Shown here one piece after another: positions 5,247 through 19,668 of a stretch of 20,462 nucleotides of DNA. The stretch comes from a virus. The stretch lies in IMG/VR virus record IMGVR_UViG_3300027793_000339, positions 1 to 20,462 of that record; one strand, written 5' to 3'. The position numbers were made by a program, and so were the translations under genes. The notes beneath the pieces were generated by a model that saw only the letters and a program-made list of their open reading frames with translations, did not search any database and was not told where the DNA came from. Position 1 is the stretch's first letter. Each line of letters starts with the position of its first letter.

Positions 5247-5372
5247 TTGACTTCCAGCCACCATACAGATGGTAGCCTCCTTCTACGCTGTGCATGGGAA
5301 TGCCTCAGCGATCGGGTGGGTTGACGCTTCACAGCCTGCCGCCACCGAAAGGGTGGACTGATGCACGGCTCC
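5227..5372 (-). ncRNA. Putative TnpB guide RNA (omega/reRNA): scaffold plus guide
   Basis: TnpB proteins use an RNA made from the 3' end of tnpB and the right end of the element, with the guide taken from the flanking DNA. Here the right end folds well. A hairpin at 5256-5277 pairs GCTACCAT with ATGGTGGC (one G-U) around a CTGT loop. A second hairpin (CCACC/GGTGG) lies near 5341-5355. GTGCAT (5361-5366) can pair with ATGCAC (5290-5295) over a longer range. The scaffold would end at TCAA (5247-5250), and the guide would start at 5246 with AGCATGAAGACACGT, matching the displaced tape measure end. The 5' boundary is a guess, and the RNA is inferred from family behaviour. Confidence 0.45.
5247..5250 (-). 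other. Probable right-end cleavage site (TCAA) of the tnpB element
   Basis: On the minus strand the bases are TCAA. From memory, TCAA is the right cleavage site of the IS608 type in the IS200/IS605 family. The duplicated tape measure gene end begins at the very next base (5246), so two independent signs place the element boundary here. The assignment is inferred because no transposase is present to test it. Confidence 0.4.
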
Positions 5373-6491
5373 ACGCCCGTTTTGACTCTCCGCCAGTCCG
5401 GCGGCGAGGATGTTCAAAGCAGCGTTGATGTCGCGGTCGTGAACCGTTCCGCAACTCGGGCACTGCCACTCCCGAATCGACAGCTCTTTCTTGCCGTCGT
5501 GATGGCCGCAAGCTGAGCAGACCTGACTGGTAGGGAGCCATCGGTTGATGACAACCACCTGCCTGCCATATTGCTCAGCCTTGGACTCCAGCAGAGCCCT
5601 GAACTGCCGCCAACCCGCATCGGCAATCGAGCGGGCCAGCTTCTTGTTCTTCAGCATCCCCGAAACGTTCAGGTCTTCCAGCACCACCGTTTGGTTTTCA
5701 CGGATGATGCGGGTCGAGAGCTGATGCAGGAAGTCGAGGCGCCGATCAGCAGCCTTGGCGTGCAGCTTGGCTACCCTGCGTCTAGCGAAAGCCAGACGGT
5801 TAGAGCCCTTTTCCTTGTGCTTCAGGTTGCGCTGCAGCCGCCGCAGCCGCTTAAGCGCCGAGCGCAGAAACCTCGGCGGAGCAATCTTTTTGCCATCTGA
5901 GGTAACGGCGAGGGATGTCAAGCCCAAGTCTATGCCAATCACTTTGCCGTTTTTCGGCATTTGACTTGGCTCGACTTCTACAACAAAGCTTGCGAAATAA
6001 CGTCCGCTGGAATCACGAATAATTGTGACACTGGTTGGCGATGACGGCAGTGAGCGACTCCAAATAATTGGCACTGAACCAATTTTTGCAAGAATCAAAC
6101 GATTATTTTTTACGCGAAATGCATTGGATGTAAAACGAGCTGACTGGGTGCCGCACTTTTTCTTGAAGCGCGGCGGGCCAACCCCACTGCCCCTGCGCTT
6201 TCCTTTTAGGCTATTCCACCAATTACGATAGGCTCTGTCAAGGTCGCGCACAGACTGCTGAAGTATCGTATTACTTGGTTCGGCAAGCCACTTTCTTTCA
6301 GGAGTCTGCTTCGCTTGAGTAATGCAAAGCTTGGCTAAAATTGGATAGGTAACTTTTTGACCAGCACTGTATAGCTCGCGGCTTTTGGCTAGAGCGTCAT
6401 TCCATACAACGCGAGCGCAGCCAAAGGCCTTGCCGATCGCACCTATTTGGTGCGGGTGTGGATACAGGCGAAACCGGTAGCGTCGCTTCAT
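5283..6491 (-). CDS. tnpB: TnpB RNA-guided nuclease (IS1341-type, no TnpA partner)
   Basis: This 402-residue protein has the normal TnpB length and all key parts: an OrfB-type N-terminal helix-turn-helix region (residues 1-40), the split RuvC nuclease core with D188 ([13 protein letters not shown]), E272 ([12 protein letters not shown]) and D354 ([13 protein letters not shown]), and a zinc ribbon C325-x2-C328 / C344-x2-C347. Nothing is missing, so it should be active. TnpB nucleases cut DNA next to a short adjacent motif, guided by an RNA from the element's right end. No TnpA transposase lies in the window, so the element cannot move alone by the usual peel-and-paste route. The start is ATG at 6491-6489, directly behind an extended -10 promoter. 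The gene sits between the tape measure and a minor tail gene in the same direction, where it breaks a tightly packed tail operon. Confidence 0.95.
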
Positions 6492-13984: not shown

Positions 13985-14018
13985 TGAGCCAAAAACTCTT
14001 CTCTAGCCAGTATAGGCA

Positions 14019-14609
14019 CTATAAGCGAAAACCGATTTCGACCCCTCTCCGAACATTGAAAGATAGCTGGCCGCCTCTTGTGTAGGTCTGGAACCAAAAC
14101 TTCGGAGCAGTAATTGAAGCATTTGGATCTTCCCTTGTGTATCCAATGGCAATGTCAGGGCGAAGGCCAAAGTCTTGCATTCCACCTCCATCCTTGCGCC
14201 TGAATCCACGCTCAATCACCGGCTTAATGGGAGTGCCGATCGCAAAGAAAAGCCCCTCTTCTTCGTCAATTGCAATTCCAGCATAAGGAGATGAGTTCGT
14301 GATTTCAAATCTAATCATATCGCTGCCAACTTTTGAATTCAGAACTCGCTCGTATCTGCTGAGAGGGAAGTTTCTTTTGTTGTACGAGTAGACGGATCCC
14401 TCCTTTCTTGGGGGGCTTGCGGCGCCGCCAGGGATCACCACATCCCAAGCAGACGAAAAGCTGCCGCTCCACGCGGGACCGGCCTGCGCAAGTCCATTCG
14501 TCACCTCAACGGCGACCTGTTGCACCGCCTTTGCAACTGCCTTATTGATCTGCCCCTGCAGATCCTTGGCAAGGCTGATGTTTTGTCCGCGCCTTCTTAC
14601 TCTGGCCAT
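14019..14609 (-). CDS. gp10-like tail completion protein, second paralogue
   Basis: This 196-residue protein starts at ATG 14609 and has a basic N-terminus. It is clearly related to the protein at 16576-17211. Both share an N-terminal helix ending in NGLA followed by GPA(W/Y)SG and an Ser-x-W turn (N38 to W55 here). Both also have FEI-x-N-(S/T)-SPYA in the middle and a C-terminal Y-x-RGG plus Val-Arg ending. This pattern fits HK97 gp10-like proteins, which sit at the head-tail joint and complete the tail. This copy lies apart from the other neck genes, between the chaperone and the tape measure, and just behind a terminator. It may have taken a role in tail initiation or tape measure handling; this is inference. 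Confidence 0.7.
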   Translation of the reverse strand: MARVRRRGQNISLAKDLQGQINKAVAKAVQQVAVEVTNGLAQAGPAWSGSFSSAWDVVIPGGAASPPRKEGSVYSYNKRNFPLSRYERVLNSKVGSDMIRFEITNSSPYAGIAIDEEEGLFFAIGTPIKPVIERGFRRKDGGGMQDFGLRPDIAIGYTREDPNASITAPKFWFQTYTRGGQLSFNVRRGVEIGFRL

Positions 14610-14632
14610 TTTTTATTTCAACTCTAGCCAAG

Positions 14633-14656
14633 AAAAAGGGGCCTACCGGCGGCCCC
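14633..14656 (-). terminator. Intrinsic terminator after the tail chaperone gene
   Basis: On the minus strand the stem GGGGCC/GGCCCC (plus one A-T pair) closes a seven-base loop and is followed by TTTTT. The stop codon of the frameshifted chaperone (14643-14645) lies at the edge of the loop, so ribosomes finishing the long product would disturb the hairpin. The next gene starts 24 bases after the T-run. Confidence 0.75.
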
Positions 14657-15205
14657 TCTTCGCTTTACTTATCGCCTCTTCTTGATCTTCCTGTTTGATC
14701 TTGAAGTAAGCTGACCAGAGGATTAGTTCCTCTGGGGTCATCGTCGTATCGACTTCGCGGAGACTCTTGCCAAGAGTTTCTGCAACTACCAGTTTCAGGT
14801 AGGTCCAGCGGTCTTCGCGGAGTTCGTCTGCGATTTTTTTGTCGAGGACTCAACCTCATCATCCTCACTGCCAAGGACAACAAGAATCAGCTTGTCAAGA
14901 TCCTCAGCACGAATCGCGGTCTTCAGCTCGGGGATTTCCCCAGCTGCAAACATCGCGCTGCCATCAGCATTCTTGGCCTTGCTGACGAGCAGATAGATCA
15001 GCCAGTCGGAATCGTCATCCTTGGTCTTGGATGCAGCACGGGCATTGCGACGAGCCCGGTCACGCTCAGCTGCAACCAGCGGCGTGATATACATTTCAAG
15101 CTCGGTGAAGCCATCGCTGAGAGGAACGACCTTCTTGATTGGTTCAAGATTGGCGGCCTGCTTCAGCTTTTCAAGAGCTGTGCCGAAGCCAGTAGTGGAG
15201 GCCAT
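14643..15205 (-). CDS. Tail assembly chaperone, -1 frameshifted (G-T type) long form
   Basis: A -1 slip on AAAAAAA (14834-14840) joins the first 124 codons of the chaperone frame to 63 codons of the next frame and ends at TAG (14645-14643), giving 187 residues. The -1 frame continues with IADELREDRWTYLKLVVAET, then GKSLREVDTTMTPEELILWS and ends KRGRR. This is a charged, helical domain, with a TPEELILW-type segment of the kind seen in tail chaperone extensions. In lambda, gpG and gpGT coat the tape measure and recruit the major tail protein, with the long form made at a low ratio. The phase (A AAA AAA), the position before the tape measure and the length all fit the family. Confidence 0.88.
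14795..15205 (-). CDS. Tail assembly chaperone, short (G-type) form
   Basis: This is the zero-frame product of 136 residues, starting at ATG 15205 (MASTTGFGTALEKLKQAANL) and ending at TGA 14797-14795. The frame is open further upstream to 15289, but that part runs through a terminator hairpin and reads like nonsense, so ATG 15205 is preferred. There is no clear Shine-Dalgarno. The sequence is mainly helical, with an acidic tail just before the slippery site. Like lambda gpG, it should be the abundant partner that binds the tape measure during tail assembly. It lies between the major tail protein and the tape measure genes, with terminators on both sides, which should set its dose. Confidence 0.85.
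   Translation of the reverse strand: MASTTGFGTALEKLKQAANLEPIKKVVPLSDGFTELEMYITPLVAAERDRARRNARAASKTKDDDSDWLIYLLVSKAKNADGSAMFAAGEIPELKTAIRAEDLDKLILVVLGSEDDEVESSTKKSQTNSAKTAGPT
14834..14840 (-). other. Programmed -1 ribosomal frameshift site (A AAA AAA)
   Basis: Seven A residues on the minus strand are read as ACA AAA AAA in the chaperone frame, the exact X XXY YYZ phase for a -1 slip. A GAGG motif ends 13 bases upstream and could act as an internal Shine-Dalgarno stimulator. I see no strong hairpin just downstream. Confidence 0.87.
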
Positions 15206-15238
15206 GTGAATAGACGGAGGCTTGAACAGGATAGCAAC

Positions 15239-15264
15239 AAAAAAGCCCCCGAACAAGCGGGGGC
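15239..15264 (-). terminator. Intrinsic terminator after the major tail protein gene
   Basis: On the minus strand a perfect 7-bp stem GCCCCCG/CGGGGGC with a six-base loop is followed by TTTTTT. It begins 25 bases after the major tail stop and lies before the chaperone start. It should end most transcripts at the highly made major tail protein and let fewer through to the chaperone and tape measure. Confidence 0.9.
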
Positions 15265-15288: not shown

Positions 15289-16041
15289 TCAGGTGCGGGT
15301 CAGGTCGAAGGTGACGTTGCCAGACGGACGGAAGTTGATGCTCACGCTCTGGGCATCATCCGGGTTCACGTTCAGGCTTGCGGAAGTCAGTACAACCTCA
15401 GTCGAGATCGAACGGCTCAGCGTTTCGGACAGCGTGCCACCCGAATACACGGCGTCAATGTAAAGCTTGACGGCGGTGCCGGTTTGACGACGCTGCAGCA
15501 CATCGCTGATCAGACGGTTCGACATAGCCGAGTCGGCATCCGTGAAGTACACGGTGGTCGTGCCAGTAGCATCAGCAAAGCTGGTCACGTAAGTCCTGAA
15601 AGGAGCAAACTGACCATTCGGGACGCCGATGGTGGTTACGTCGATCTCAGCTCGCGTGATCTCCAGGCTCCAGTCCCGAACCTGGGCGATCGGGGCGAAG
15701 GCCTTGTAGACGATGGTGGCCAGCTGGCTGCCAAAGTTGGTCGGAGCAGCGGTTGCAGTAGCAGCCGTGCCGCCAACAGTGCTGGAAAGCGTCATGATCC
15801 CAGTTGCGGGATCATACGTCTTCACGAAGTAGTCGCCAGCCGCGATGGCATTGGTGACAGTCGCACCAACGGGATAGGTGAGGGTCACGGGGTCATCGAC
15901 CTTGAAACCCAGGAAATCACCAACCGTGATATTGCTGCCGGTGGTGGGAAAAGCAGAGGCGCCGAGGCAGGCCTGGGTGTTTGCCGGCTTATACCAGAAA
16001 GCGCCCGAAGTGCCCGTCAGTACCGTGGTGTCACAGGACAT
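15289..16041 (-). CDS. Major tail (tube) protein
   Basis: This 250-residue protein begins at ATG 16041 (MSCDTTVLTGTSGAFWYKPA). It is beta-rich and low in charge, with a Thr/Val/Gly-rich middle and a C-terminal part (TLSETLSRSISTEVVLTSAS and after) typical of tail tube proteins. It sits between the tail terminator and the chaperone and is followed by a strong terminator, as befits the most abundant tail protein. The frame is open to a TTG at 16089, which has a GAGGTG motif ten bases before it and would add 16 residues; I prefer the ATG, which gives a normal N-terminus. The tube role is inferred from order and style. Confidence 0.8.
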   Translation of the reverse strand: MSCDTTVLTGTSGAFWYKPANTQACLGASAFPTTGSNITVGDFLGFKVDDPVTLTYPVGATVTNAIAAGDYFVKTYDPATGIMTLSSTVGGTAATATAAPTNFGSQLATIVYKAFAPIAQVRDWSLEITRAEIDVTTIGVPNGQFAPFRTYVTSFADATGTTTVYFTDADSAMSNRLISDVLQRRQTGTAVKLYIDAVYSGGTLSETLSRSISTEVVLTSASLNVNPDDAQSVSINFRPSGNVTFDLTRT

Positions 16042-16061
16042 GGACTTTGAAGAAATGAACA

Positions 16062-17622: not shown

Positions 17623-19668
17623 CTACGTCTCAAGAGCGTCTTGCACGATGTCGCCGACCTCCTGGGTGGTTGCACAGTTCGCAACGCGAGAAAGCTCTGG
17701 CGTCAATTCAGTTCGCACTTCATCTGCAATCTGGCCAGGAGTCGGCACTGTTGGCGCGTTCGTCAGGCTCGTAGCCGTATCAGTCAGCGTGACGCGGGCC
17801 AGGGTGTCAGACGGCTTCAGGCGGCTGCTCACCGTGGCGTCGATTCGCGATAGTTCCGTGCTCAGCTCGGCGCGGACCGCTGTGGCATTGTCGGCAGCGC
17901 TGGGGCCTGGGTTGGCCGTGAGCGTGCGGGTGGCCGCGCTCCAGGCCGTGGTGGCGATACTGGCGGCACTCGGCGGCGCCGTGTAGCCGGAAGAGGGCAG
18001 CCGGCTGCTGACGGTGGCATCCAGGTTGCCCAGCTCCGGGGCCAGCTCTGTGCGCACCTGAGCTGCAGTCAGGGTCGAGCGGGTGGCGAGGGCGCCGCCG
18101 GTCCGCTCCAGATCTGCACGGATGGCGGCCACCAATGCCACTTGATCAATGTTCTGGTTGCCAATTGCACCAACAATTGCATTCAAAATTGCCTGACCGT
18201 CATTTTCGTTCAAGATTGACTGTTCAACTGCTGTTGCAATCGCTTGCCGTTCTCCGCTGGTGAGGGAGAAGCCGGTTCTATCAAGGGCGCTGTTGACAGC
18301 GGTGGCAATAGCAGAAGCGGTTGGGGGAGTCGTATAAGAAGAGGTTGCAAGCCTTGTTGAAATTGCAACGTCAAGACGCCCCAGTTCAGTGCTCAGCTCG
18401 GTGCGGACAGCCGTGGCGATCTCGGCCTCTGTCGGCACATCCGGGGCGTTGGTGAGGGTGGTGACGGTATCGGCAAGGGTGACGCGGGCCAGGGTGCCAC
18501 CAGGCGCGAGCCGGCTGCTGACGGCGTCGTCGATCCTGCCAAGCTCAGTTGCCAGCTCCGACCGCACGGCGGTTGCGGCCTCGGCGGCAGTGGGCAGGGC
18601 ATCGAGCTGCGTGTCCAGGTTGGCGCTGGCCAGGCCTACGGCGGCGCGGATGCTGGCGCCATCAATGGCAGCAGTGCCGGTGGTGGCATCAACGGGCACG
18701 CCAAGCGCCACGGACCCGGCAGGGGGGACGGCGCAGGTGCCGGTCAGCTCACCAGCAGGGCCGTAGACCGTGCCGCTGCGGACGTTGCTGGTGGCTGGGT
18801 TGCCGCCTACAGAGTCGGCGGTGTAGAGACTGCGGATGATTCCTGACCCACCTACCCTAACCTGATAGTAAGTAGAAGAAGGGCTGGCTATCCAGCCCCA
18901 TCTTATTGCGTAAATCGGATTGATTCCATTTATTGAAGTCAAAAGCGGGCCGGTTACTAACACTTGAGCGGCACTGCTGGTGCTACTGACACCAGCAGCG
19001 CTGCCCGACGCCGTGATTGTGCCATTCACGGTAAGACTTCCCGCCCCTGTTAAACCGATTCCGGCTGCGACACCGGCATTTACACTTCCAACTACTGAAA
19101 TTGAACCAGTACCATTGCTAAAAATTGCACTTCCGATAGCGGCAGTTACGGTGCCCGTAACATTAACAGTTCCTGAAGATGTGAGTCTAATCGCCTCGGC
19201 ATTGGAAACAGCGGAAACATTGCCTGTGAAGTTAAAAGTTCCTGAAGAACTAACCCTGACGCCACCAGTGTCAGTGGTAGAGCCTAGAATATTGGGTACA
19301 ATTGATCCGACCATGTTTAGGGTGCCGGTGCCGTTGAAAAGTATTCCGACAGCGCCTGCTGATGCTCCATTATGATTTCCATTAAGCTGAACTGACGTAC
19401 CAGTATTGTTAGATACCGTTAAAACTGTTGCAGTGCTTGCGATAGTATTTGCCGTCAGCGTGATTCCATTGGCACTGATTAAAAACCCACCACCCGCCGT
19501 CACCCCCGTCGTACTCGCGTTGCTTATCTGCAGCACCGTCGGGCTGACATCAATCGTCACCGTGAACGTATTGCTATACACATCATCCGCCGCAGTCGGC
19601 AACGCCCCGGTGTTCCACACCGTTGGGTCAGACCAGTTCCCAGATTTGACCGCCCGAACGATTGCCAT
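17623..19668 (-). CDS. Fibre-like protein with beta-helix and tandem repeat modules
   Basis: This 681-residue protein starts at ATG 19668, three bases after the previous stop, with AAGGGG upstream. Residues 1-40 carry a W-S-D-P-x-x-W motif. Residues about 95-240 hold at least five turns of a repeat of the form G-(T/S)-x-x-x-x-G-(S/N)-(V/I) (for example GTFNFTGNVSAV, GTVNVTGTVTAA, GSISVVGSVNAG), as in right-handed beta-helices of phage fibres and adhesins. The last 320 residues repeat A-VR-(T/S/A)-EL-x-x-EL-x-x-(L/I)-D-x-x-(V/I)-S-(S/T)-RL four times, plus a weaker fifth copy, probably helical and trimer-forming. There is no signal peptide. Its place near the head-tail joint suggests a head or neck fibre that touches the host or its surroundings; this is inferred. 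Confidence 0.7.
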   Translation of the reverse strand: MAIVRAVKSGNWSDPTVWNTGALPTAADDVYSNTFTVTIDVSPTVLQISNASTTGVTAGGGFLISANGITLTANTIASTATVLTVSNNTGTSVQLNGNHNGASAGAVGILFNGTGTLNMVGSIVPNILGSTTDTGGVRVSSSGTFNFTGNVSAVSNAEAIRLTSSGTVNVTGTVTAAIGSAIFSNGTGSISVVGSVNAGVAAGIGLTGAGSLTVNGTITASGSAAGVSSTSSAAQVLVTGPLLTSINGINPIYAIRWGWIASPSSTYYQVRVGGSGIIRSLYTADSVGGNPATSNVRSGTVYGPAGELTGTCAVPPAGSVALGVPVDATTGTAAIDGASIRAAVGLASANLDTQLDALPTAAEAATAVRSELATELGRIDDAVSSRLAPGGTLARVTLADTVTTLTNAPDVPTEAEIATAVRTELSTELGRLDVAISTRLATSSYTTPPTASAIATAVNSALDRTGFSLTSGERQAIATAVEQSILNENDGQAILNAIVGAIGNQNIDQVALVAAIRADLERTGGALATRSTLTAAQVRTELAPELGNLDATVSSRLPSSGYTAPPSAASIATTAWSAATRTLTANPGPSAADNATAVRAELSTELSRIDATVSSRLKPSDTLARVTLTDTATSLTNAPTVPTPGQIADEVRTELTPELSRVANCATTQEVGDIVQDALET
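17680..18595 (-). repeat. Internal repeats of the fibre gene
   Basis: Five related coding units (about 18515-18595, 18350-18425, 17990-18065, 17815-17885 and 17680-17725) encode the VR-x-EL-x-x-EL...SRL module. Some DNA stretches are nearly identical; for example GTGACGCGGGCCAGGGTG (plus strand) occurs at 17789-17806 and 18479-18496. Such repeats can recombine and change fibre length. Confidence 0.75.

Follow-up and report, generated by a model that had tools for sequence, protein, structure and literature searches.

The window, as we call the whole 20,462-nucleotide stretch of viral DNA that was analysed, carries all of its late genes on the minus strand. In the order of transcription, the part considered here consists of a major tail candidate, a terminator, the short chaperone, its -1 extension, a second terminator, a gp10-like gene and the tape measure gene (Table 1). 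The major tail candidate had no PHROG match; it sits between the tail terminator gene (phrog_179) and the chaperone, and a homologue precedes the chaperone in relatives as well. The first-pass annotation had placed a second gp10-like gene and then the tape measure gene downstream of the chaperone, and this order was confirmed, the gp10-like protein proving to be a paralogue of another one in the window. The second copy looks lineage-specific, as in the relative G001 the tape measure gene follows directly after the terminator. Among named phages, the gp10-like protein had no match at either the DNA or the protein level, and the only match to the short chaperone was in KBS-S-2A. Two further minus-strand features of the window are a 681-aa repetitive protein at 17623-19668, with no PHROG or Pfam match, and an IS605-family OrfB/TnpB at 5283-6491, inserted in the tail gene cluster. 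Several copies with 80% identity to this TnpB are present in Cyanobacteria bacterium UBA5018; because of this match and of the chaperone relative in Synechococcus phage KBS-S-2A, the hosts are likely picocyanobacteria. The host marker psbA was absent from three related phage contigs.

Table 1 Features of the tail gene region, in the order of transcription.
Feature	Position	Strand	Basis or remark
Major tail protein candidate	15289..16059	-	Open reading frame, by position
Intrinsic terminator after the major tail gene	15245..15264	-	24 nt past the stop; normal spacing, used for comparison
-10-like TATCCT after the first terminator	15228..15233	-	Sequence; relatives have TATAGT/TACAGT here
Short tail assembly chaperone, zero frame, stop TGA 14797-14795	14795..15205	-	phrog_20784, E=1.3e-19; relative in cyanophage KBS-S-2A
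Slippery heptamer A_AAA_AAA	14834..14840	-	Correct phase; A7 run in all window-clade loci
-1-frame extension of the long chaperone, ends TAG 14645-14643	14643..14837	-	Open from the slippery site; phrog_337 tail protein, E=3e-4
Terminator hairpin GGGGCC-GCCGGTA-GGCCCC, long-product stop in the loop	14638..14656	-	Fold, relatives, shuffles
T-tract of the terminator, T5	14633..14637	-	T5-T6 in all window-clade relatives
-10-like TAGAGT inside conserved TGGCTANNNT	14621..14626	-	About 11-12 nt past the stem
gp10-like paralogue between terminator and tape measure	14019..14609	-	33% identity to 17211-16576, E=2e-22
-10-like TATACT immediately upstream of the tape measure gene, with a second TGGCTAGAG after it	14009..14014	-	Sequence; putative
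Tape measure gene, 2466 aa	6584..13984	-	By length and position

A short and a long chaperone are predicted to arise by -1 frameshifting at A_AAA_AAA: the heptamer is in phase, an open -1 frame overlaps the zero frame, and both lie between the major tail and tape measure genes, which is the arrangement of G/GT-type chaperones. Conservation of the -1 extension extends to 137 viral contigs, and C_CCA_AAA serves as the slippery site in relatives. The short chaperone of marine relatives, L016 and L044 among them, ends right at this site, whereas that of the window runs about 40 nt beyond its heptamer.

On the minus strand at 14656-14633, six G-C pairs enclose a loop of seven nucleotides and are followed directly by five T residues, so that a GC-rich stem and a T-run stand together on the gene strand. 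The stop codon of the long chaperone was indeed found at the loop, as noted in the first pass: the T and A of TAG 14645-14643 are loop bases, and its G is the first base of the 3' arm. The short product, said to end about 140 bases earlier, stops at TGA 14797-14795, 138 nt before the stem. The minimum free energy of the 19-mer was -12.9 kcal/mol, or -16.5 kcal/mol with an A-U/G-U extension of the stem, and the fold of the whole 61-nt region (z = -1.84 against shuffles) was, taken alone, only moderately unusual. Shuffles of the gene strand contained 0.03 hairpin and T-tract sites on average; the window has two, this one and that at 15264-15245 after the major tail gene. A generic terminator scanner missed the 14656-14633 hairpin on the minus strand, probably because the A-U extension consumes the T-tract. 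A chance hairpin was ruled out by the shuffles together with the conservation described below, and a terminator for the opposite strand by the plus-strand tail, CTTCGCTT, which has no T-run. Judged by its sequence, the element is a strong, well-formed intrinsic terminator, and it is predicted to end transcription.

Junctions following the long-product stop were taken from all fetched relatives, giving 87 distinct sequences, and hairpins were sought in the interval reaching from 35 nt upstream to 75 nt downstream of the stop. A terminator was present in 12 of the 87, and in every one of these 12 the long-product stop lies in the loop. At least five stem sequences are represented: GGGGCC, GGGGGC, GCCCGC (L017 and L019), GACGCCG (L059 and L071) and GCCGCCG (L093 and L133). 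Within the window clade the stem is kept despite diverged flanks, and L169-L171 re-form it as GGGGGC/GCCCCC with matching arms; the stem has been conserved through sequence change from GGGGCC to GGGGGC, and unrelated stems occupy the same site elsewhere. On a tree built from about 500 nt of upstream sequence, from which L133 was left off as too short, the terminator junctions fall in at least four separate places. Related viruses have, by these sequences, arrived at the same layout with different stems in at least four lineages. The layout for frameshifting is retained in the remaining 75 junctions, which lack a terminator; KBS-S-2A has none at its long-product stop. The terminator must therefore be often gained or lost and be dispensable for frameshifting; as most relatives do without one, an obligate part of the frameshift device was ruled out.

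The position of this terminator contrasts with that of nearly all others. In the same loci, 94 terminators were each paired with the open frame, 100 codons or longer, that precedes it; 78 of them begin 24-29 nt past the stop and none of the others falls within 0-17 nt, most of the 94 being orthologues of the site after the major tail gene and hence not independent. The spacing at 15264-15245 likewise recurs, at 24-30 nt, in nearly all relatives. In L078 an apparent overlap was due to the choice of a wrong frame, the true gap being 25 nt; a further terminator, which follows a frame shorter than 100 codons, stands at 17 nt. Elsewhere in related whole genomes two terminators lie 0 and 8 nt past a stop. 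In picocyanobacterial genomes 45 of 47 terminators begin at least 18 nt past the stop and none at 0-17 nt, one of the two exceptions having a weak tail and the other depending on a doubtful gene call, whereas the same script placed 7 of 15 terminators from Bacilli flanks below 18 nt; both figures come from crude gene calling and small samples. In B. subtilis, a member of the Bacilli, the polymerase has been reported to outrun the ribosomes (PMC7858274). The avoidance of the 0-17 nt zone in phages and hosts alike suggests that the presence of a ribosome close to a terminator is of consequence here, and gives an indirect sign that a ribosome may follow the polymerase closely enough to block a hairpin. 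We found no measurement in the literature of how closely ribosomes trail RNA polymerase in picocyanobacteria, on which this spacing bears. Nearly every other terminator keeps its distance, the 0- and 8-nt cases elsewhere excepted, and the long-chaperone stop appears to be the one place where these phages put a terminator under a ribosome, and then under frameshifted ribosomes only.

What such a position may do is indicated by work in E. coli, where a terminator a few bases past a stop codon is almost fully repressed by the ribosome (Li et al., PMC4824070). In the same reporters, a one-base insertion that shortened the distance from the stop to the terminator downstream of it from 28 to 5 nt lowered termination from about 90% to below 10% (PMC4824070), which is nearly the contrast that the two reading frames of the window would present. 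Read-through by frameshifted ribosomes should follow from this anatomy and the E. coli data, as a prediction rather than a cyanobacterial measurement.

Directly past the terminator stands a -10-like hexamer with no clear -35, and an element of this kind also comes after the terminator of the major tail gene, so that a terminator-promoter boundary seems to occur repeatedly. In six divergent relatives whose flanks have diverged, TGGCTA and the final T of the TGGCTANNNT region are invariant. TANA[AG]T occurs in 10 of the 12 terminator junctions, against 0.6 expected, and in 36 of the 75 junctions that lack a terminator, against 11.4 expected. Since a -10-like element comes directly after the terminator, the gp10-like and tape measure genes probably have a promoter or promoters of their own, for which these hexamers are candidates. 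The sequence TGGCTAGAG appears twice on the minus strand of the window, at 14621-14630 before the gp10-like gene and at 14003-14011 before the tape measure gene, as if the promoter-like element had been duplicated along with the inserted gp10-like gene. GCTAYAGTW is found 12:0 on the gene strand in G001, G002, G003 and G005 (two of these contigs are apparently the same species), which suggests a phage-specific promoter element; some of the copies lie inside genes, for which reason GCTAYAGTW was set aside as a general promoter and the junction copies alone were used.

From these results, a hypothesis may be put forward that we consider probable, though by no means secure. The chaperone unit would end in a working intrinsic terminator, with a promoter-like element for the following gene directly behind it, a boundary like that past the major tail gene. 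The hairpin would have been placed across the final codons of the -1 frame, where only the minority of shifted ribosomes arrives; ribosomes in the main frame would leave the message well upstream and could not block the hairpin, which would normally be free to fold. A leading ribosome that had shifted and ran close behind the polymerase would cover the loop and the 3' arm and let the polymerase through, so that frameshift-dependent read-through would be real but secondary. Phages would avoid terminators beneath heavily used stops, and the long-chaperone stop would be exempt because few ribosomes reach it.

The first-pass annotation had gone further: in its model, the frequency of frameshifting would chiefly decide how much transcription enters the gp10-like and tape measure genes, by ribosome-dependent antitermination, and tape measure output would be matched to that of the long chaperone. 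That frameshifting bears on read-through was upheld in part: the terminator is conserved and recurrent, with the stop in the loop in all twelve cases and at least four lineages, the spacing rule elsewhere implies that ribosomes matter, and, as attenuation of the pyrBI type would have it, a reading frame (here the -1 frame) runs into the terminator and ends in its loop. A change of frame alone can, moreover, turn a terminator off in E. coli (PMC4824070). The hosts also appear to lack Rho, so that the hairpin would be the sole terminator here: none was found above the cut-off in 41 family genomes, the weak matches fall in open frames, most of them around 500 aa long, that presumably encode ATP synthase subunits. 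On the same count, polarity through Rho downstream of the short stop is unlikely. What was not supported is control from this source alone. The -10-like element past the stem, the tape measure gene's own TATACT with the gp10-like gene that intervenes in this species, and the relatives that frameshift with no terminator led us not to accept the full model. The promoter-like element directly downstream argues against full dependence of the downstream genes on read-through, which is unlikely to be their sole source of expression and may add to it; the proposed tie between tape measure and long-chaperone output is left unsupported by this element and by the 75 terminator-less junctions. As a whole, we hold this stronger model to be unlikely. 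Its most far-reaching form is speculative and on the improbable side too: the fraction of leading ribosomes that shift would set the fraction of polymerases passing the terminator into the tail-length genes, and chaperone ratio and tape measure supply would be linked on one transcript, in a layout repeatedly evolved in cyanobacterial siphophage-like viruses.

The overlap could also have arisen with no link to ribosomes. A C-terminus rich in arginine and lysine has GC-rich codons that offer a ready 5' arm, and a complementary arm with a T-run would then be the easiest terminator to make; neither ribosomes nor frameshifting would be involved, as polymerase and ribosome would not be close together in the host. 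In line with such compaction, the 5' arms lie within AKRGR/RRR codons and the intergenic space is short. Other assigned terminators in the same loci, however, do not overlap gene ends, and host and phage terminators shun the 0-17 nt zone, unlike those of the Bacilli flanks, and we therefore regard compaction alone as rather unlikely. Very improbable is a reversed role, in which the hairpin would stimulate frameshifting from a distance. An influence of this sort is reported for the terminator of T7 gene 10: according to a review (PMC5009743), frameshifting there is affected by a CCCC that lies in the terminator, more than 200 nt downstream. The window has GGCCCC about 180 nt downstream, but most relatives frameshift without the hairpin, and a nearer structure could serve (-13.8 kcal/mol, as a raw folding energy, in the first 58 nt past the spacer).

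In short, the terminator itself is ordinary, whereas its position is unusual and has evolved repeatedly; the observation of the first pass was confirmed and its interpretation supported in part. The chaperone resembles the lambda G/GT type in its slippery heptamer, which lies close to where the short gene ends, its -1 extension and its place between the major tail and tape measure genes, and differs in the terminator that 12 of 87 relatives carry over the long-product stop; we know of no terminator over the long-product stop of lambda G/GT. Phage tail-gene frameshifting is known as a means of setting protein ratios, and here the shifted frame ends, repeatedly, inside a terminator, a layout that offers a testable link between translational recoding and transcription of the next gene. 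In the literature covered, which includes few subscription journals, we found no report of a terminator over the frameshift stop of a tail chaperone. T7 gene 10A/10B with T-phi is similar in that the zero-frame stop lies about 160 nt before the terminator and the -1-frame stop right at it (10B stop at 24162, termination at 24210, stem beginning about 8 nt past the stop); it differs in that the stop precedes the stem instead of lying in the loop, and in that the gene encodes the capsid. T7 gene 10 is transcribed by a fast phage polymerase, and ribosome coupling is hence not expected there. In E. coli attenuation of the pyrBI type, folding of the terminator depends on the reach of a coupled ribosome and involves metabolite-dependent pausing of the polymerase. 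The E. coli tR2 reporters likewise have terminator folding set by how far the coupled ribosome reaches (Li et al. 2015, PMC4824070). Compared with both, the choice proposed here would be made by programmed frameshifting instead of metabolite-dependent pausing. In the ermC leader, telithromycin induces frameshifting, and the shifted ribosomes open an RNA structure further downstream and turn on the following gene (PMC5009743); there the event is drug-induced and translation initiation is controlled, whereas here transcription termination would be the step affected.
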